The translations under genes were made by a program, and so were the position numbers. 10,014 nucleotides of DNA from Candidatus Parcubacteria bacterium (GTDB taxonomy: Bacteria > Patescibacteriota > Minisyncoccia > Phycocordibacterales > Zambryskibacteraceae), in contig JAIFWR010000018.1 of NCBI GenBank assembly GCA_019661805.1, positions 1 through 10,014 of the forward strand. The letters run 5' to 3'. The notes beneath the pieces are model-generated. The model was not told where the DNA came from. It ran no database searches and saw only the letters and a list, made by a program, of their open reading frames with translations. Below are positions 2,633-10,014 of the stretch, piece by piece. Numbering within the stretch: the stretch's first letter is position 1; every line of letters starts with the position of its first letter.

Positions 2633-4294
2633 ATGATCCGCTTCTTCGCCTACAAAAAGACTCGAGCCGGAGTGCTGTCCCTGGCTTTAGGCGCGGCTAT
2701 GGCTTCGAGCCTTATCTTCCCCGGGAGGGCGGAAGCCGTTATAACCCCGCCGACGTTTATCCAGGAAGCTGAAACTACCTGGGCTCTCACTACTCCCAAG
2801 ACTACCGCGAACTTTGACGTTCAATCAGGAGACGTGCTCGTGGCCTTTTCAGTCAGCGAAACAGCAGAAAACTACGTCGTGAACGACCCTCCAACAGGGA
2901 CCTTGGCTATAACCTGGTCTTTAAAGCAATCCTATACCGTTACGGCTTTTACTGAAGTAAAAATTTGGACAGGCACGGTGGCCGCCACTCAATCGGGCGT
3001 CAATGTTACATTCACCTGTACAGGGTGCGATGGCTCTTTCGGACGTTTTGGTGGAAATGTATTAACCTTCCGCGGCAGCGACGGCATAGGCATTACCAAC
3101 AAGGCCCAATACGTCAGCGCGAGCCAGCCCTCAGTGACTCTCACGGGAGTCTCGGATCATAGCGCAATCGTCATGGTCAATGGCGATTGGGTCGCCATCG
3201 AGAACACGGCACCAATCTACGACACGGCCCAGGCAGGTTCTTTTACTGAGACGTCGTACTCCTTCACTAGCGGCGTCTACGCCGTCGAAGGAGGCTATTA
3301 TGCGGATGCGGGAACGGCTGGCAATAAAACCATAGGTATCACCGCTCCAAGCGCGATGAAGTGGTCCATTGTGGGAGTTGAGGTGAAGGGGATTACTGCT
3401 GCGTCAACCCATGTAAAAATCCGCGGCGGGGTAAGGCTCCGCAACAGAGGCAGCTCAAATTCAACAGCCACCTTTACCACATCGGGCAACCAAAGCTGGC
3501 CCGTGCCTGCCGGCGTAACAAGCATTACGGTAAAATCCTGGGGTGCGGGTGGAGGAGGAGGAGCGAAGGCCGGCGGCGGCGGCGGATTCGCCCGAGCTAC
3601 GGTGGTAGTAACCCCGCTTGAAAGCTTGACCGTATACGTTGGAGGCAAGGGACTTTCGGGTTCTGGCGGCACGGGCGGTAGCGGCGGCGGTTATAGCGCT
3701 GTCAGCCGCGGCACTATTCCCAGCGGTACTACGCTCGTGCAAGCCGGCGGCGGCGGAGGTGGTGGTGGTTCGAGCGTTAGCGAAGGCGGCGCCGGCGGCG
3801 CCGGTGGAGGCACGAGTGGTGTAACCGGAACAAATAGCTTGGGCGGAGCGACGGGCGGCGGCGGCGGTACTGGAAGCGGTGGTACGGCTGGAACGGCAAG
3901 AGGCACAGCTGGTACTGCAAACCAAGGCGGCGCCGGAGGAGACGGAACTGCTGGGTCGGGTACCGGGAGTGCGGGCGGCGCTAATGGCGGCGGCGCGAGT
4001 GGAGCTGCAGGAGGCACTGCCGGCGGCGGCGGAGCTGGCGGTGGCCGATTCGGCGGCGGTGGTGGTGGAGCGGGTTCCGGCGGCGGCGGCGGAGGTGGCG
4101 GAGGCAGCGACTTGGTAACTGGAAGCGGTACCGTGGAAACCGCCGGCTCCGGCACTACGCCCGGCAATAATACCGATACCGACTATACGGGCAGCGTAGG
4201 CGCGGGCGGAGCCGTAACCACCAACGGCAATGACGGCTACGTTGTCATTAGTTATACGAGTGTCAGTACGCAGCCTCCAGTAAAATTTAGATAA
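2633..4294 (+). CDS. Secreted beta-sandwich protein with a long glycine-rich domain
   Basis: The ATG directly follows the upstream stop. The product has 553 residues. A signal peptide (1-35) ends in GRAEA. Residues about 38-252 look like a beta-sandwich of the type seen in bacterial and phage surface proteins ([29 protein letters not shown]), with a CTGC motif at 129-132. Residues about 278-545 match the glycine-rich domain family related to the glycine-rich region of ALK/LTK receptors. That domain starts [15 protein letters not shown], then [13 protein letters not shown], then [16 protein letters not shown] and [10 protein letters not shown]. It has a tract of about 150 mostly Gly/Ala/Ser/Thr residues and closes with DGYVVISYT. 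Such domains can form stacked polyglycine II helices (family knowledge). Probable role: surface adhesin or fibre; ligand unknown. The N-terminal half uses more AT-rich codons than the neighbouring genes. Confidence 0.8.
3540..4110 (+). repeat. Glycine-codon-rich low-complexity tract
   Basis: Dense in-frame GGN codons, with runs of up to nine or so consecutive glycines broken by Ala, Ser, Thr and a few aromatic or charged residues. Codons are mixed (GGC, GGT, GGA, GGG), so this is a protein-level repeat and not a pure DNA microsatellite. Its complement produces long proline-rich and Ala/Ser-rich open frames on the - strand, which are shadows. Confidence 0.85.
4281..4286 (+). promoter_or_regulatory. 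Weak -10-like hexamer (TAAAAT) before the gene at 4297
   Basis: TAAAAT matches TATAAT at five of six positions and ends 10 bases before ATG 4297. It has no TGN extension and no recognisable -35. It lies in the last codons of the upstream gene, and the 2-base gap between the genes is equally consistent with read-through transcription. Confidence 0.15.
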
Positions 4295-4296
4295 CC

Positions 4297-4841
4297 ATGA
4301 GTTCACAAAAAGCATATGCCATAGTGGGCGCAGGCATTATACTTTTCGCTGGCTACTTCCTCTTCTTTAAAGATCATCCCGGAAGCGAAAAAGCATTCGT
4401 CTTCGACAATTTCCACGGCAGTGCGGCCGTGAGCCCGCATTTCTCCTTCCGCTACCCCGGGAACTGGCACCACGACGGCCAGTACTTCAGTCCCCAATCT
4501 ACAGTGCCACGGCGTCTGCCTACTTCGACCTCGTGAAGGCAGATATCTTCGACCAGACGGCGCTCAAGTACCAGATCGACGCCTCCGCGCGGCGCGCCCC
4601 CGACGCGAGCGTAGAGATAGGCGGCCGCCCGTTCAAGAAATACGACCTTACCGATTACGGTTCCTACGGCGGCGAGAGTGCCGGCAGGGTGATCGTCTAC
4701 GTCGGGCCGGAGATAATGGTAGGAGGGGTGGCCTACCTCATCGTCTTCCACTGGGAGGAGAGGCCGCTTACAGAATCCCTTTCCGGCAATGACCCCGCCC
4801 TTTTTGAGAGCATGGTCCAGAGCCTCACCTTCCTTCCATGA
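4297..4841 (+). pseudogene. Small membrane-anchored extracellular protein, split by an apparent one-base deletion
   Basis: Two open frames join into one sensible protein. The first part (from ATG 4297) has a membrane helix at residues 6-24 and a domain ending FSFRYPGNWHHDGQYFSP. It then loses sense and stops at 4536. The second frame reads IYSATASAYFDLVKADIFDQ from 4497 and continues to 4841 with GRPFKKYDLTDYGSYGG, GRVIVYVGPEI and YLIVFHWEERPL. Adding one C to the CCCC run at 4492-4495 restores a continuous protein of about 181 residues through SPPIYSATA. I recall intact Parcubacteria proteins of this architecture (RYP.NW...G.YFSP...YFDL..AD.FDQT.LKYQID), function unknown. Cause: sequencing error or a true loss-of-function mutation; the sequence alone cannot say. 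The second part has a GTG at 4533 but no ribosome-binding site there. The end overlaps the next gene as ATGA, so the original was probably co-translated with it. Confidence 0.75.
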
Positions 4842-5809
4842 CCAAGAAAGTGCTCCTTATTTCCCACGGCGCCCTTATCCTCGTCATTATCGTTCTTCTT
4901 CTCCGCATCGGCATTGTCCCGGCCGCTCCGGCCCGGGCCTCCCGCGACTACAGTAACGAATACAAGTTCACGAACCCCATCCTCGATTACGAGAATCCGA
5001 AGATGTCCTCCGTTTCGCTGTTTTCCGAGAGCGTCGAGAGCAAGGTACATGACCTGAAGAAGAGATACGGTCTCGACTTCGCTTCCGTCTACTTCCGCGA
5101 CCTCGACGACGGCCAATGGATCGGCGTGAACGAAAAGGAAGCCCTCGCCTCGGCGAGCCTCGTGAAGCTGCCCATCCTCATTTCCCTCCTTAAGGATGCG
5201 GAAACTCGCCCCGGCTTCCTCGAACAGAGGGTGGCCGTTACGGCAGCCGACGCGGGAGCTGACTTGAGACAGAACATCAAGCCGGACCGTCCAGTCATGC
5301 CGGGCGAAACCTACACGCTCGGCGAGCTCGCCGAAAGGATGATCGTCGAGTCCGACAATGTGGCGGCGGCCGCGATCATTCGGGCTACCGACGAGAACCG
5401 GGAGCAGATCTACAGGGCGGTCGGCGTCAAGTTCCACGATGAGGAAGACGAGGTCATGGTCAACGTCAAGAACTACGCGGGCTTCTTCCGCGTCCTCTTC
5501 AACGCGACGTATCTTTCCCGCGAGAATTCCGAGAAAGCGCTCGGTATCCTCTCAAAGGTGAAGTTTACCCAAGGCATCGTGGCCGGAGTTCCGGCGGGAA
5601 CGCCGGTCGCTCATAAGTTCGGCGAGCGGAGCGTCACGATCAACGGCCTCGAGGGCCAAACCCAGCTCCACGATTGCGGCATCGTCTATTACCCCGAGAA
5701 TCCGTACCTTCTCTGTATCATGACCCGCGGCAACAATTTCGATAATCAGGAGAAATTTATCGCGGAGGTATCGCGCTATTTCTACGCCGAGGTGAGAAAG
5801 TCGCTCTGA
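4838..5809 (+). CDS. Membrane-anchored serine hydrolase of the class A beta-lactamase fold
   Basis: 323 residues. A hydrophobic helix at residues 5-22 with no clear cleavage site puts the catalytic domain outside the membrane. Motifs of the penicillin-recognising serine enzymes are present: S107-L-V-K110 (SxxK nucleophile and base), S172-D173-N174 (SDN loop), and K260-F261-G262 in place of the usual K[TS]G. HDCGIVYYPEN (278-288) fits the C-terminal strand region. The ExxLN omega-loop signature with the deacylating Glu of true class A beta-lactamases is not visible; the region holds an acidic DEEDE stretch (201-205). Expected activity: acyl-enzyme chemistry on a peptidoglycan-like or ester/amide substrate, more likely a D,D-peptidase-like or other serine hydrolase than a drug-resistance enzyme. 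The ATG overlaps the preceding stop (ATGA). It ends with TGA, and a 52-base gap follows. Confidence 0.88.
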   Translation: MTKKVLLISHGALILVIIVLLLRIGIVPAAPARASRDYSNEYKFTNPILDYENPKMSSVSLFSESVESKVHDLKKRYGLDFASVYFRDLDDGQWIGVNEKEALASASLVKLPILISLLKDAETRPGFLEQRVAVTAADAGADLRQNIKPDRPVMPGETYTLGELAERMIVESDNVAAAAIIRATDENREQIYRAVGVKFHDEEDEVMVNVKNYAGFFRVLFNATYLSRENSEKALGILSKVKFTQGIVAGVPAGTPVAHKFGERSVTINGLEGQTQLHDCGIVYYPENPYLLCIMTRGNNFDNQEKFIAEVSRYFYAEVRKSL

Positions 5810-5861
5810 TCCAGGGCCGTCCACAGGAAGGGCCATTTCAAGCATGATATAATCTCGGCAT
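5810..5861 (+). other. Only real intergenic gap (52 bases)
   Basis: Contains the extended -10 at 5845-5853. A 7-base inverted repeat GGAAGGG (5826-5832) / CCCTTCC (5875-5881) spans the promoter and the start codon with a 42-base loop. I see no T-run or stable stem that would qualify as an intrinsic terminator for the upstream gene, so transcription from upstream may continue through. Confidence 0.5.
5845..5853 (+). promoter_or_regulatory. Extended -10 promoter (TGATATAAT) for the gene at 5862
   Basis: A perfect TGN plus TATAAT in the only real intergenic gap (5810-5861). It ends 8 bases before ATG 5862, with no Shine-Dalgarno sequence between. A -35 is not recognisable at 16-19 bases upstream, which an extended -10 can tolerate. 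Initiation at the usual distance would fall at or within about two bases of the ATG, so the message is probably leaderless. It would drive the 5862-10014 gene cluster. Confidence 0.6.
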
Positions 5862-6236
5862 ATGGAGCATGCTTCCCTTCCGAAAAAGTTCAAACTCGTG
5901 ATCGCAGCCGTGATCTGCCTGGCCCTCGGCGCATTCATCCTCACCGGCTTCCTCTGGATGAGGCTCCAGGACGTCGAGACGAAGGTGGCCGGGACTGATT
6001 CCGAGACGTCCCAGATCGTTGGGGCCGTAGGGGAGCATCTTCTCCTCCCAGAGGGCGAGGAGCCAGAGCTTTTGACCGTTTCCGATTTGAGCCAGGTAGC
6101 GGGCCAGCCTTTCTTCGCGAACGCCCTCGTCGGCGACAAGGTCCTCGTCTACAAGCAGGCTTCCAAGGCCGTGCTATGGCGCCCGTCGGAGAAGAAGGTC
6201 ATCGAGGTCTACCCCATCAACCTCTCGGCCCAGTAA
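5862..6236 (+). CDS. Small single-pass membrane protein, conserved Patescibacteria type, unknown function
   Basis: 124 residues. A membrane helix spans residues 11-33 (KLVIAAVICLALGAFILTGF) and is followed by a possible short helical stretch (RLQDVETKV). The extracellular part contains the segments VGEHLLLPEGEEPELLTVSD, GQPFFANALVGDKVLVY and WRPSEKKVIEVYPIN. The PEGE.P...TV.D and GQPFF.NA..GDKVL.Y signatures match a short protein family that I remember as widespread in Parcubacteria and without assigned function. The start is set by the promoter ending 8 bases upstream. The stop lies 4 bases before the dockerin gene, so it probably leads that operon. Confidence 0.8.
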   Translation: MEHASLPKKFKLVIAAVICLALGAFILTGFLWMRLQDVETKVAGTDSETSQIVGAVGEHLLLPEGEEPELLTVSDLSQVAGQPFFANALVGDKVLVYKQASKAVLWRPSEKKVIEVYPINLSAQ

Positions 6237-6240
6237 TTCC

Positions 6241-7539
6241 ATGCGCTTCTTCCGAAGCCTCCTCATCATCGTTGCCGCGATCCTCATCGCGGGGACGGCT
6301 TTCGCCGAGGAATCTTCCTCGACTTCCTACCGGATGTTCGATAGCACGTTTTCTCCCGGCGGATACTCCACCTCGACCGGCTTCACCTTGAGCGGCGCCA
6401 TATCGCAATTCGCTCAAGGTACCTCCACGTCGAATCTTTTCGCCGCATTCGGCGGCTTCCTCTACTTTCCTTTTGTCACGACGCCGGCCTTGAGCGCGAC
6501 GCCGGGAAACGCGCAGGTGGGGCTTACCTGGACTTCCGCTGACGCCTCGACCGGCTGGGCCGTGGGGGGCTACTCGGTCGGCCAATCGACTGCCCCAGGC
6601 GGCTCGTATGCCTACTCGGACGTCGGCAATGTCCTCGCGAGCACGCGCACCGGCCTTACCAACGGTACGACTTACTACTTCATCGTAAGGGTGCTTGACG
6701 CGCTCGGATCCACCATCGCCACCTCGACCGAAGTCTCGAGCACTCCCGTAGCGCCTGCGGGCGGCGGTGGCGGAGGCGGAGGGGGAGGAGGCGGCGGTGG
6801 CGGGGGGACTTATAGCGCGACGGGAGTCATCTTTTCCGGCAGGGCCTATCCCTTGAGCCGGATCAGCATCTTGAAGGATGCCCAGCTCGCGGTTACCACT
6901 ATTGCCGGGCCGGACAGCAAGTTCAAGGCGACGCTCGGCAATCTCTCCCCGGGGAATTACTCCTTCTCGGTCTATGGCGAGGATCTCAATAAAATCCGCT
7001 CCAACTCCTTCACCTTTCCCGTCTATATAACTTCCGGCGTGATCACCGAGGTTGGAGGGATATTCATCGCCCCGACTATCTCCGTAGACAAATCCCAGGT
7101 CAAGAAAGGCGACGACATCGCTATTTTCGGCCAAACCACGAACGCGGGCGAGGTAACGATCCAGGTGAATTCGGATGAACCCCGCTTCGCCAGGGTAATT
7201 TCCGACCCGAACGGCGTCTATCTTTACAACTTCGACACGTCGCCGCTCGAATACGGCGACCATAGCACCAAGTCCAAGGCCGCCGTGGCCAATGAGATCA
7301 GCTCTTACAGCGCCGCCGCGGCCTTCGCGGTCGGGGATACGAACATCTTCGCGGTGCCGAAGGCGAAGACTTCCGTAAAGGGAGACTCAAATGGCGACGG
7401 CAGGGTCAACCTCGTCGACTTCTCCATCGTGGCGTACTGGTACAACAGGTCGGGGCCGCCGAAGAACGTAGACATAAACGGCGACGGCAAAGTGAGCCTC
7501 GTCGACTTCTCCATCATGGCGTACAACTGGACAGGATAA
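6241..7539 (+). CDS. Secreted FN3 / poly-glycine linker / type I dockerin protein
   Basis: 432 residues. Residues 1-22 are a signal peptide ending AFA. Residues 23-78 are a Ser/Thr-rich segment (SSTSYRMFDSTFSPGG) of a kind I associate with Parcubacteria surface proteins. Residues about 79-170 fit a fibronectin type III domain (PGNAQVGLTW; LTNGTTYYFIVRVLD). Residues 174-189 are sixteen consecutive glycines. Residues 190-370 look like two beta-sandwich domains, the first resembling a carboxypeptidase-regulatory-like fold (GRAYPLSRISILKDAQ), the second Ig-like (ISVDKSQVKKGDDI). Residues 381-432 are a type I dockerin with two calcium loops: D382/N384/D386/N390/D393 and D411/N413/D415/S419/D422, each followed by FSI.AY. 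No C-terminal anchor or sortase motif is present, so retention at the surface would depend on the dockerin. Dockerins bind cohesin domains, and cohesin-like proteins are encoded immediately downstream. The next gene starts 2 bases after the stop. No catalytic domain is recognisable. Confidence 0.85.
   Translation: MRFFRSLLIIVAAILIAGTAFAEESSSTSYRMFDSTFSPGGYSTSTGFTLSGAISQFAQGTSTSNLFAAFGGFLYFPFVTTPALSATPGNAQVGLTWTSADASTGWAVGGYSVGQSTAPGGSYAYSDVGNVLASTRTGLTNGTTYYFIVRVLDALGSTIATSTEVSSTPVAPAGGGGGGGGGGGGGGGGTYSATGVIFSGRAYPLSRISILKDAQLAVTTIAGPDSKFKATLGNLSPGNYSFSVYGEDLNKIRSNSFTFPVYITSGVITEVGGIFIAPTISVDKSQVKKGDDIAIFGQTTNAGEVTIQVNSDEPRFARVISDPNGVYLYNFDTSPLEYGDHSTKSKAAVANEISSYSAAAAFAVGDTNIFAVPKAKTSVKGDSNGDGRVNLVDFSIVAYWYNRSGPPKNVDINGDGKVSLVDFSIMAYNWTG
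6760..6807 (+). repeat. Sixteen-codon poly-glycine linker
   Basis: Sixteen consecutive GGN codons (G174-G189) between the FN3 domain and the following beta domains. All four glycine codons are used, so it is not a simple DNA microsatellite. It would act as a flexible spacer, or possibly form a polyglycine helix. Confidence 0.85.
7382..7524 (+). repeat. Duplicated dockerin calcium-binding segment
   Basis: Two copies of an F-hand-type calcium loop plus helix, 87 bases (29 residues) apart. The stretches 7411-7437 and 7498-7524 match at 26 of 27 bases and encode LVDFSIVAY and LVDFSIMAY. Both loops share identical residues (L, V) at positions 10 and 11, which govern cohesin specificity in known type I dockerins. 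Confidence 0.85.
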
Positions 7540-7541
7540 AC

Positions 7542-8318
7542 ATGAAGCACGTTTGCACATTTCTCATATTGCTCATGGCCGGGCTGCCGGCCGTCGCCTC
7601 GGCCTCTTCCGCCGCACTCATGGTCAAAGCAGGCAGGGAAAGCGTGAACGCCCTCGAAGCGACCTTGACCCTTCCTCCCGGCATGGGAGTGGACCAGCTC
7701 TATGACGGCAATTCTGCCCTCCTCATCTGGGTCAAGCGGCCCGCCTACGACGAGGCTTCCCGCACCATTTCCTTTTCGGGCATTGCGCCGGGAGGCTTTA
7801 GCGGAGAGAAGATGATCCTCTCTTTTTCGGGCAGCTTTGAGGCGGAAGATCTCTCCAGCATCTCCTTCTCGGGGGTTGCGGCATTCAAGAATGACGGCTC
7901 GGGAGGAAGCGCGCCTGTTACCTTCTCCGTCGTCCCGTTCGAAGTGGCCCGAGACGAGCTTCCTCCCGTGCCGTTCGTCCTTACCATTTCCTCTTCTCCC
8001 GCTATCTTCGAAGGAAGGCGCTTTGTCTCATTTGCCGCCCAAGACAAGGGCACGGGCATCGAGCGTTACGAATACGCAACCACTTGGCTCCTTCCTCCGG
8101 GTGAAAGGGATTGGAAGCCGGGGGATTCGCCCATCCCCCTCTCGCGCTCCATGCTCTTCCAAAACATTTCCGTCCGCGCCCTAGACCGGGCAGGGAACGC
8201 GGCAGAAGCGTCCACAGCCGGTCCGTATCGGTATCCGAGCATTGGTATTATAATAACAGCATGCGCTCTTCTCCTCTTAAGACGCTCTTTGCGCTCACGC
8301 TCCTCGCCTTCCTACTGA
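7542..8318 (+). CDS. Type I membrane protein with a divergent cohesin-like domain
   Basis: 258 residues. The signal peptide (1-21) ends VASAS. Residues about 22-132 resemble a cohesin-like beta-sandwich: SVNALEATLTLPPG, LIWVKRPAYD, TISFSGIAPGGF, LSFSGSF, FKNDGSGG. The WV.xP..D / SFSGI.PGG / NDGxG series is shared with the next two genes, though this copy is the most divergent. Residues about 138-228 form an Ig-like domain (FVSFAAQDKGTGIERYEYAT; VRALDRAGNAAEAS). Residues 233-246 are a membrane helix (SIGIIITACALLLL), with a basic tail RRSLRSRS as the stop-transfer signal. It is therefore surface-exposed and membrane-anchored. A possible AGGA at 7533-7536 sits 5 bases before the ATG. The last 58 bases overlap the next gene in another frame and contain its promoter-like element. 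Proposed role: surface receptor for the dockerin protein encoded just upstream (inference). Confidence 0.75.
   Translation: MKHVCTFLILLMAGLPAVASASSAALMVKAGRESVNALEATLTLPPGMGVDQLYDGNSALLIWVKRPAYDEASRTISFSGIAPGGFSGEKMILSFSGSFEAEDLSSISFSGVAAFKNDGSGGSAPVTFSVVPFEVARDELPPVPFVLTISSSPAIFEGRRFVSFAAQDKGTGIERYEYATTWLLPPGERDWKPGDSPIPLSRSMLFQNISVRALDRAGNAAEASTAGPYRYPSIGIIITACALLLLRRSLRSRSSPSY
8243..8254 (+). promoter_or_regulatory. Internal -10 element (TATTATAAT) for the gene at 8261
   Basis: Two overlapping options: TATAAT at 8249-8254, ending 6 bases before ATG 8261, or TGG plus TATTAT at 8243-8251, ending 9 bases before it. It lies inside the coding region of the previous gene, in its membrane helix codons. 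No Shine-Dalgarno sequence precedes ATG 8261, consistent with a leaderless message. The AT-rich patch stands out in GC-rich surroundings, but Ile codons of the membrane helix could produce it by chance. Confidence 0.45.
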
Positions 8319-9247
8319 TCCCTTGGAGCGTCTTTGCCGACACCATTTTCGTCTCTCCCCTGACCGGAACCTACGGCGTAGGCGACACTTTCACGGTCCG
8401 GATCATGGTTTCGAGCCCGCAGCAGTCGATCAACGCCATTTCCGGCGTGCTCTCGTACCCCATCGACAAGCTCCAAGTCACCTCCATCTCGAAGATCGGC
8501 TCCGTGCTTTCCCTATGGGTCCAGGAACCCTCCTTCTCCAACTCCAAAGGCACGGTGTCCTTTGAGGGCATAGTGCCGAATCCGGGCTTCAACGAGTCGA
8601 ACGGCAGGGTGCTCGCCGTGAACTTTAGGGTCGTGGGCACGGGCCCCACCGACATACGGCTGACATCGGGTTCGCTTCTGGCAAATGACGGCTACGGCAC
8701 CAATGTCTTAAAGACGCTCGGCACGGCGTCCTACCTTCTCGAGCAGAAGGAGCAGATGCCCGTCACCCCGCCCGCGCTTTTGGAAACAAGCGGCGACAGC
8801 GGAGGCAAGGACGAGCCGGGACCGGCCGTCATCGACCTCAACAAATACAAGCAGCCAAAGGAAGGAGGTGCCACCTTCAAGCTTGAGCTGCCGACATGGA
8901 AGGAGGCGATGGACTGGGCGGTCAAGTTCTTCTCCATCGTGATACCGCTCCTTGCCCTCCTCTTCCTCCTCATCCACACCACCAAGCGCGGGGTAGGGAA
9001 TATCCAGGCTTTGCGGAAGAACCTGCGCAAAGACCTGCACGGCATTGACCGGCTGGTCGAAAAATCCTTCGATATCCTCAAAGAAGACGTGAGCGAGAGC
9101 ATCCGTATCCTTGAAAGGGCGAGGATGAAGCGCCGCCTAACTGCCGAGGAGGACGCCACCATACACAGTTTGAGGCAAAGCCTAACCAATGCCGAAAAAC
9201 TCATCCATCAGGAAGTCTCCCATGCAGAGAAAGATCTTGATGATTAA
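8261..9247 (+). CDS. Membrane-anchored cohesin-like protein with a charged helical cytoplasmic tail
   Basis: The frame is open upstream to at least 8111, but residues before ATG 8261 are Arg/His/Pro-rich shadow of the previous gene. ATG 8261 begins a clean signal peptide (residues 1-26, ending SVFA) and has a -10 element just before it, giving 328 residues. Residues 27-160 are a cohesin-like domain: GTYGVGDTFTVRIMV, INAISGVLSYPIDKLQV, LWVQEPSFS, TVSFEGIVPNPGF, LAVNFRVVGTG, LLANDGYGTNV. A Pro/Gly/Glu linker (161-200) follows, then a membrane helix (223-240, FFSIVIPLLALLFLLIHT). A charged, probably helical cytoplasmic region of about 85 residues ends the protein (RKNLRKDLHGIDRLVEKSF; AEKLIHQEVSHAEKDLDD). 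The fold outside suggests binding to a dockerin; the inside segment could dimerise or contact a cytoplasmic partner (inference). It overlaps the previous gene by 58 bases and the next by 26. Confidence 0.82.
   Translation: MRSSPLKTLFALTLLAFLLIPWSVFADTIFVSPLTGTYGVGDTFTVRIMVSSPQQSINAISGVLSYPIDKLQVTSISKIGSVLSLWVQEPSFSNSKGTVSFEGIVPNPGFNESNGRVLAVNFRVVGTGPTDIRLTSGSLLANDGYGTNVLKTLGTASYLLEQKEQMPVTPPALLETSGDSGGKDEPGPAVIDLNKYKQPKEGGATFKLELPTWKEAMDWAVKFFSIVIPLLALLFLLIHTTKRGVGNIQALRKNLRKDLHGIDRLVEKSFDILKEDVSESIRILERARMKRRLTAEEDATIHSLRQSLTNAEKLIHQEVSHAEKDLDD
9210..9215 (+). promoter_or_regulatory. Ribosome binding site AGGAAG deciding start 9222
   Basis: AGGAAG lies 6 bases before ATG 9222, inside the end of the previous gene. 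The in-frame ATG at 9240 has only a weaker AGAGAAAG upstream, so 9222 is preferred. This is the clearest Shine-Dalgarno match in the window; most other genes rely on overlap or leaderless starts. Confidence 0.5.
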
Positions 9248-10014
9248 GACTCACCTCCTAATAGCGACTCTCGTGCTCGCCGCGGGAGTATTCCCCGCGG
9301 AGGCACAGACGGTTTTCATCGACGCTTCCAAGCTCGCTTCCCGGGTCGAGATCTATTTCTCCCCGCGCACGGGAAGCTTCGTCGAGGGTTCCACCTTCGA
9401 TATTCCCATCCTCATCAACACCCGGGGAGCGAAGATCAACGGGCTCGAAATCAAGATTACGTTCGACAAAGACAAGCTCGAAGTGGTCAAGCCCTCGAGC
9501 GGCCAGTCCATTATCGGCGTCTGGGTAGAGCCGCCGAGCTACGACAACACCCGCGGCGTAGCGAGCTATATGGGTGTGATCCCGAACGGCATTACCACCA
9601 GTTCCGGCTCGATAGGGACCATCACCTTTAGGGCAAAAAAGCTCGGCAAGGCCGTGGTGACCGTGGGCGGCAATTCCAAAGTGCTCTTAAACGACGGCCA
9701 GGGTACGGAAGCGGCGGTGGATCTGGGCAGGTCGGAATATTCGATCTTGCCGAAGGCCCCTGAAGGAGTGAAGATATTCTCGGAAACCCACCCTTTCCAG
9801 GGCGACTGGTACAACAACAATAGCCCGGTCGTCTTCTGGGACAAGGATCCCGGCGTAGCGGGGTTCAGCTACGCGCTCGACGACAAGCCCTCGACCGTGC
9901 CGGAGAATACGGTCATGACCGCGGAGACGACGAAGTCGTTTGAAAGCTTGGACGACGGGCTCTGGTACTTCCACATCAAGGCCAACAAGAACGGAGTCTG
10001 GGGGACGACCGGGC
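9222..10014 (+). CDS. Secreted cohesin-like protein, 3' end beyond the window
   Basis: The frame is open from ATG 9222 to the window end (264 residues visible) with no stop. The start is chosen for the AGGAAG 6 bases upstream; M7 at 9240 is the alternative. The signal peptide (1-28) ends FPAEA. Residues about 40-175 are the clearest cohesin-like domain of the three: VEIYFSPRTGSFVEGSTFDI, GAKINGLEIKITFDKDKLEV, VWVEPPSYDN, SYMGVIPNGI, GTITFRAKKLGKAVVTV, LLNDGQGT. Residues about 180-264 start a second domain (VVFWDKDPGVAGFSYALDDK; DDGLWYFHIKA), an Ig-like repeat type I have seen in Parcubacteria surface proteins. The anchor, if any, lies past the window. It overlaps the previous gene by 26 bases. 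Probable role: surface scaffold or receptor in the same assembly as the dockerin protein (inference). Confidence 0.82.
   Translation, partial: MQRKILMIKTHLLIATLVLAAGVFPAEAQTVFIDASKLASRVEIYFSPRTGSFVEGSTFDIPILINTRGAKINGLEIKITFDKDKLEVVKPSSGQSIIGVWVEPPSYDNTRGVASYMGVIPNGITTSSGSIGTITFRAKKLGKAVVTVGGNSKVLLNDGQGTEAAVDLGRSEYSILPKAPEGVKIFSETHPFQGDWYNNNSPVVFWDKDPGVAGFSYALDDKPSTVPENTVMTAETTKSFESLDDGLWYFHIKANKNGVWGTTG

Follow-up and report, generated by a model that had tools for sequence, protein, structure and literature searches.

A conserved dockerin-cohesin gene cassette of Patescibacteria with a probable role in non-cellulosomal surface display

Introduction

Non-cellulosomal cohesin and dockerin modules occur in Archaeoglobus fulgidus and other archaea (Peer et al. 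2009, as cited in passages of PMC9012536, PMC8542988 and PMC10066038), and passages of two of these papers also place such modules outside cellulosomes in Omnitrophota (PMC10066038) and Cloacimonadota (PMC8542988). Here we describe a gene cassette built on the two modules in Patescibacteria. The window, by which we mean the whole stretch of DNA that was analysed, is one entire contig of 10,014 bases (JAIFWR010000018.1) from a Candidatus Parcubacteria genome (G000; 363 kb, 59 contigs, 79% complete), and it carries a gene for an exported dockerin protein, followed by three genes for cohesin proteins. We propose that these genes probably form a display cassette of a non-cellulosomal kind: cohesins anchored in the membrane would hold a dockerin-tagged surface protein.

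The archaeal modules (structure 2xdh) resemble those of the window in having the cohesin fold and no cellulosome. They differ in that the genes described here keep a conserved order across many lineages of Patescibacteria, with between one and four cohesin genes following the dockerin gene. In ANME archaea, dockerin and cohesin proteins, some of which carry both modules, were suggested to act in outer-layer attachment and partner contact. There, however, the modules often tag transport binding proteins and multi-cohesin proteins resemble scaffoldins, and no fixed gene cluster is described in the section on these proteins (PMC9012536). The clostridial cellulosome (structures 1ohz and 2vn5/2vn6) shares with the window the cohesin fold and a type I dockerin whose two repeats are similar. 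In contrast, the window's cohesins are single and predicted to be membrane-anchored, and neither a scaffoldin nor a tagged glycoside hydrolase was found in its genome.

Two further cases come from the Patescibacteria themselves. SEML1_0315 is a dockerin protein of a cultured epibiont that we take to be Southlakia epibionticum, a Saccharibacteria lineage. It is essential, its target was guessed to be host glycans, and it differs from our case in its lineage and in that the main text does not use the word cohesin (PMC10633639). Candidatus Shapirobacterales express both cohesin and dockerin genes, which were read as a cellulosome for carbon metabolism in a passage that gives no gene order (PMC9123182). 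Both modules are already known in candidate phyla, and some relatives of the window's proteins are named 'cohesin domain-containing' or 'dockerin type I repeat-containing' by NCBI. In the literature on Patescibacteria and candidate phyla, as covered by a search that left subscription journals mostly outside, no title or abstract opening announces a conserved dockerin-cohesin gene order.

Results

The cassette and its conservation

The four genes of the cassette all lie on the + strand. The dockerin protein (6241..7539; 432 residues) was delineated from its open reading frame (ORF), Pfam, an alignment of dockerin proteins (A1) and hydropathy. Next comes cohesin 1 (7542..8318; 258 residues), with a signal peptide, a cohesin domain without strand 1, an Ig/FN3-like domain and a short C-terminal membrane helix. 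Cohesin 2 (8261..9247; 328 residues from a conserved ATG at 8261) has a signal peptide, a cohesin domain, a membrane helix (residues 220-238) and a predicted cytoplasmic tail of 90 residues (8975..9244), while cohesin 3 (9240..10014, or from an alternative start at 9189; ORF and Pfam) is cut by the contig end. Each of these ORFs holds one cohesin, cohesin 3 being incomplete. An initial sequence-only reading had described gaps or overlaps of a few to 58 bases between the genes, and this is correct: the spacing is +2 nucleotides, a 58-nucleotide overlap and an 8-nucleotide overlap (with the start at 9240), and therefore translation of the four-gene unit is probably coupled. The same reading's compact unit of one dockerin protein and three cohesin proteins, lacking a hydrolase, is supported by Pfam, phmmer and a structural model of cohesin 1.

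Gene order was compared in the best 80 of 234 relatives, obtained by a scan of genome contigs with the dockerin protein family. These loci come from Zambryski-, Taylor-, Kaiser-, Nomura-, Magasanik-, Uhr-, Komeili-, Buchanan-, Staskawicz-, Niyogi-, Wolfe- and Portnoybacteria, among others. Five of them end less than 700 nucleotides downstream of the dockerin gene; in all of the remaining 75, a cohesin ORF on the same strand lies within two ORFs, as the next ORF in 68 and as the second in 7. The median gap between dockerin and cohesin genes in the 68 adjoining cases is 3 nucleotides, and at least two cohesin ORFs are present among the next five in 73 of the 75. The anticipated conservation of gene order in relatives is thus borne out at every locus with enough downstream sequence.

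This arrangement also bears on where the dockerin would bind. In a trans arrangement, its partners would sit on adjacent cells, as cohesins, or in other proteins, and the cassette would bridge cells; this would suit a dockerin protein without its own anchor as well as the relatives in which one polypeptide has both modules. However, cis docking predicts that a dockerin gene has a cohesin gene close by, as it does at 75 of 75 loci, and we regard trans docking as quite unlikely.

Co-occurrence of the modules was determined in 383 genomes of the class and 126 genomes of the phylum, using profiles of the type of alignments A4 (dockerin) and A5 (cohesin), of 33 rows each, hand-picked from those available. 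In the class sample, for which the per-genome tables of positives are complete, 130 genomes have the dockerin and 149 the cohesin, with both in 123, dockerin only in 7, cohesin only in 26 and neither in 227. In the phylum sample, the dockerin is found in 21 genomes, the cohesin in 40 and both in 20; of 33 dockerin places, 19, spread over 18 of the 21 genomes, have a cohesin domain on the same strand no more than 1 kb downstream.

A separate idea, that the cassette replaces sortase, is unsupported because avoidance of the two would be expected. Among the 383 genomes, 37 have both, 86 the cassette only, 97 sortase only and 163 neither (odds ratio 0.72, p 0.17), and G000 itself encodes a sortase alongside the cassette (contig C8, 1878-2282; PF04203, E 2.8e-19).

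The dockerin domain

The type I dockerin spans residues 378-432 (7372..7536, + strand; PF00404 and alignment A4), up to a C-terminal WTG. The Pfam scan matches PF00404 over residues 380-426 with E 1.1e-8 and 35.6 bits, above the cut-off of 22.9, and a profile search of solved structures matches dockerins (best E 3.3e-7). The sequence-only reading had placed a two-loop type I dockerin at the C-terminus, in agreement with this match and with the ligand residues of both loops. With the calcium-ligand positions at what we take to be their usual places, loop 1 (residues 382-393; 7384..7419, + strand) presents D382, N384, D386, N390 and D393, i.e. D/N/D/N/D, and loop 2 (residues 411-422; 7471..7506, + strand) presents D411, N413, D415, S419 and D422, i.e. 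D/N/D/S/D. In the set of 81 dockerin proteins, which includes the window's own, the first Asp is kept in loop 1 of 80 and in loop 2 of 43, positions 10-11 are LV or LI in loop 1 of 79 and loop 2 of 63, and WTG ends the protein in 77. Both pairs are LV in the window. Contact with the cohesin is expected at such positions, and as they are nearly invariant in loop 1, little coevolution signal between the two modules would be expected. The two repeats of the window's dockerin, DSNGDGRVNLVDFSI and DINGDGKVSLVDFSI, are closely similar. In cellulosomes, internal dockerin symmetry accompanies two binding modes. For C. cellulolyticum, two such modes are announced in the title of 2vn5/2vn6.

The cohesin proteins

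The three cohesin domains differ in how readily they are recognised. That of cohesin 3 (9309..9755, + strand) matches PF00963 with E 1.3e-8 and 35.6 bits, above the cut-off of 24.1, and that of cohesin 2 (8339..8749, + strand; alignment A5) with E 3.2e-4 and 21.4 bits, under it. The Pfam scan has no match in cohesin 1, and PF00963 at E<=0.01 matches 1 of 21 members of the cohesin 1 family; phmmer with cohesin 2 (ORF 8261) recovers cohesin 1 at E 4.4e-9. The domain of cohesin 1 (residues 17-132; 7590..7937, + strand) lacks the first strand of known cohesins. Predicted models of one relative's cohesin 1 and of this protein have the cohesin fold, and the structure that they match best is 2xdh, with Z scores of 16.4 and 9.9, respectively; the fold check proposed with the sequence-only reading comes out positive for these two models. 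The sequence of cohesin 3 alone found no solved structure at E<=1, and the A5 profile matched cohesins weakly (best E 2.1e-4). Two more alignments were prepared: A6, with 68 cohesin 1 proteins of 220-340 residues plus that of the window, and A2, with 133 of 137 prepared rows, four loci having been skipped before that. The cohesin 3 homologue in G015, which like G016 is a genome of the window's genus, has 442 residues and a C-terminal membrane helix. Elsewhere in G000 (contig C30, 982-1116), a 410-residue frame has a weak, partial match to PF00963 (locus L002; E 0.0037; 15.5 bits, below cut-off), at which the A5 profile at E<=1e-5 has no match.

By hydropathy, the tail after the membrane helix has a median of 83 residues in 71 cohesin 2 proteins versus 9 in 70 cohesin 1 proteins, and cohesin 2 proteins of different genera match one another in their C-terminal regions. 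Both observations would fit a signalling role, in which cohesin 2, with the long tail in the cytoplasm, would be a sensor and not an anchor, and the dockerin protein a ligand or a touch arm. However, the tail matched no Pfam family and may merely help anchoring or clustering, and cohesin 1 is almost without a tail; we consider signalling unlikely.

Architecture of the dockerin protein

From the N-terminus, the dockerin protein consists of a signal peptide, a head, an FN3-like domain, poly-glycine, two Ig-like domains and the dockerin. Of 7996 candidates that were scored, 2126 are related to it at E<=0.001, and alignment A1 includes 24 of 28 dockerin proteins. The sequence-only reading's poly-glycine stands: sixteen Gly form a linker at residues 174-189 (6760..6807, + strand), and a Gly tract is present in 79 of the 81 family members. 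Its FN3 module (residues 82-168; 6484..6744, + strand) is a weak match (PF00041, E 0.013), with a phmmer match of this part to part of a solved beta-1,3-glucanase (9vsf, E 1.3e-5). The Ig-like modules, a conserved stem of two domains at residues about 196-366 (6826..7338, + strand; alignment A1), hold through the family, since PF17936 (Big_6) matches this part in 17 of 24 members at E<=0.001, and the window's protein is not among them. No hydrolase domain was found by the Pfam scan of ORF 6241-7539. The head varies among the 81 proteins: 62 are of a SYRL/FN3 type, 14 are Cys-rich and 5 are other, two of these being cut by a contig end.

Other dockerin-tagged proteins in relatives

In G000 the 432-residue protein is the only dockerin protein found, although another could be missed in a genome that is 79% complete. 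Relatives tag more proteins. Twenty stretches with other or extra dockerins were searched with the A4 and A5 profiles, and 12 have a dockerin ORF followed by a cohesin ORF (one cohesin match being weak, E 4e-4). The other eight comprise one cohesin-dockerin fusion, one cohesin amid four dockerin ORFs, three with dockerins and no cohesin, and three without a dockerin of the window's type, which had come from Pfam's model. The tags are usually C-terminal and sit on adhesin-like giants, pilin-like proteins and a few enzyme-like ones; SpaA, VWA, laminin-G, YDG, Big and FN3 domains occur, and lengths reach more than 4,400 residues. A Pfam scan of 23 other dockerin ORFs shows the dockerin only in 9, and in the rest mainly Ig, FN3, SpaA, VWA, laminin-G or beta-helix domains. 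In G016, six dockerin ORFs stand in a row, four of which were scanned: one is of the glucose/sorbosone-dehydrogenase type with an internal dockerin (PF07995, E 4.5e-80), one is weakly GDSL-like (below cut-off), one is a beta-helix protein and one is a dockerin alone. The statement that there is no catalytic enzyme is therefore right for the window but not for cassettes of this kind, as the dehydrogenase-type and weakly GDSL-like proteins are tagged in the same genus.

These proteins, together with PF18370, the beta-sheet domain of rhamnogalacturonan lyases, at locus L199 (E 1.3e-10), are what would favour a small cellulosome-like enzyme scaffold whose tagged enzymes are encoded elsewhere in the genome. 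Against it stand the single dockerin found in the window's genome and the 23 other dockerin ORFs, in which Pfam lists no glycoside hydrolase family, and such a scaffold is highly improbable. For the window itself, a cellulosome was rejected: neither a multi-cohesin scaffoldin nor a dockerin-tagged hydrolase was found in the 79% of G000 that is represented.

Four genomes encode an N-terminal cohesin and a C-terminal dockerin in one ORF (L185, 6017-9079; L188, 2562-3296; L198, 2245-3870; L199, 4749-6263), and L190 and L199 have two cohesins in one ORF. Head-to-tail chaining of these fusion proteins would be possible in principle. A wider reading, which we hold tentatively, is that in Patescibacteria the dockerin serves in general to sort proteins to the surface, with the membrane cohesins as receptors, and that the two form a non-covalent counterpart of LPXTG and sortase. 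It would serve many cargos, from giant FN3/Ig fibres and beta-helices to SpaA-like proteins, VWA proteins and a dehydrogenase, with cohesin-dockerin fusions possibly chaining into fibres.

Upstream gene and other genes of the window

Upstream of the dockerin gene, an ORF with a hydrophobic segment encodes a small protein with an N-terminal membrane segment (5862..6236, + strand), whose family is the next upstream ORF on the same strand at 32 of 80 dockerin loci. The sequence TGATATAAT (5845..5853, + strand), 8 nucleotides before the ATG at 5862, resembles an extended -10 element and may mark the start of the transcription unit. A promoter scan of the window did not flag it. Of 79 related loci, 15 have TGnTAnnnT at most 60 nucleotides ahead of their first gene, and the same kind of element directly precedes the small membrane protein gene in L066, L067, L068 and L070, so that transcripts may be leaderless.

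Further upstream, 4838-5809 encodes a secreted protein that resembles class A beta-lactamases (PF13354, E 1.2e-37) and scores far under the NCBI cut-off for that class (71.9 vs 200 bits). Its family has 19 ORFs in the 80 related loci and is among the three ORFs upstream, on the same strand, in 6. The overlapping ORFs 4297-4536 and 4533-4841, in different frames, resemble one gene split by a frameshift or sequencing error; upstream of the G015 dockerin gene, a single ORF of 173 residues (L006, 953-1474) occupies a place like that of this pair, a correspondence by position. A 553-residue exported protein with a long glycine-rich part (2633-4294) has no match in Pfam (E<=1), NCBIfam (E<=0.1) or PHROGs (E<=0.001), and a Ser/Thr/Ala-rich, repetitive, fibre-like protein of 463 residues (3-1394), cut by the contig start, has none in Pfam (E<=1) or PHROGs (E<=0.001). 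None of the 8 window proteins searched against PHROGs matched.

Discussion

In the display cassette that we propose, the dockerin protein, predicted from hydropathy to be exported and without an anchor of its own, would dock by its C-terminal dockerin onto at least one of the cohesins encoded by the next genes, through a non-covalent bond that probably involves calcium. The cohesins, membrane-anchored as judged by hydropathy, would keep it on the outer face of the cell, and the stem of two Ig-like domains and the Gly-rich linker would carry the variable N-terminal head outward. Our likeliest guess is that the head is used for adhesion; a host cell, a matrix or another surface protein are possible targets.

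Several observations weigh against this proposal. With Pfam's dockerin model, the class counts are looser (both in 95, dockerin only in 20, cohesin only in 54, neither in 214). With the profiles, cohesin genomes without a detected dockerin number 26 of 149 in the class and 20 of 40 in the phylum, and G016 and G533 have dockerin arrays without an adjoining cohesin, eight of the ten dockerin places of G533 having no listed downstream cohesin. It should be noted that the sampled genomes share ancestry and a few sit in both samples, so that Fisher p-values overstate and are descriptive only. Cohesin 1 of the window's family, as mentioned, is without the first cohesin strand, and loop 2 of the dockerin is without its first Asp in 38 of 81 proteins, so that binding may rest on one repeat. 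Finally, a read-through dockerin-cohesin 1 construct from L137 gave a model (predicted local distance difference test 94.5, predicted template modelling score 0.73) that came without inter-domain error or coordinates, and its last dockerin helix is merged with the signal-peptide helix, so that the model says little about docking.

The cassette, with both modules in 123 of 383 class genomes and built on a well-studied binding pair, is a concrete and testable candidate for how tiny, mostly uncultured bacteria hold surface proteins and make contact with other cells. It also carries a warning, in that cohesins and dockerins in Patescibacteria genomes should not be taken as evidence of cellulose degradation.

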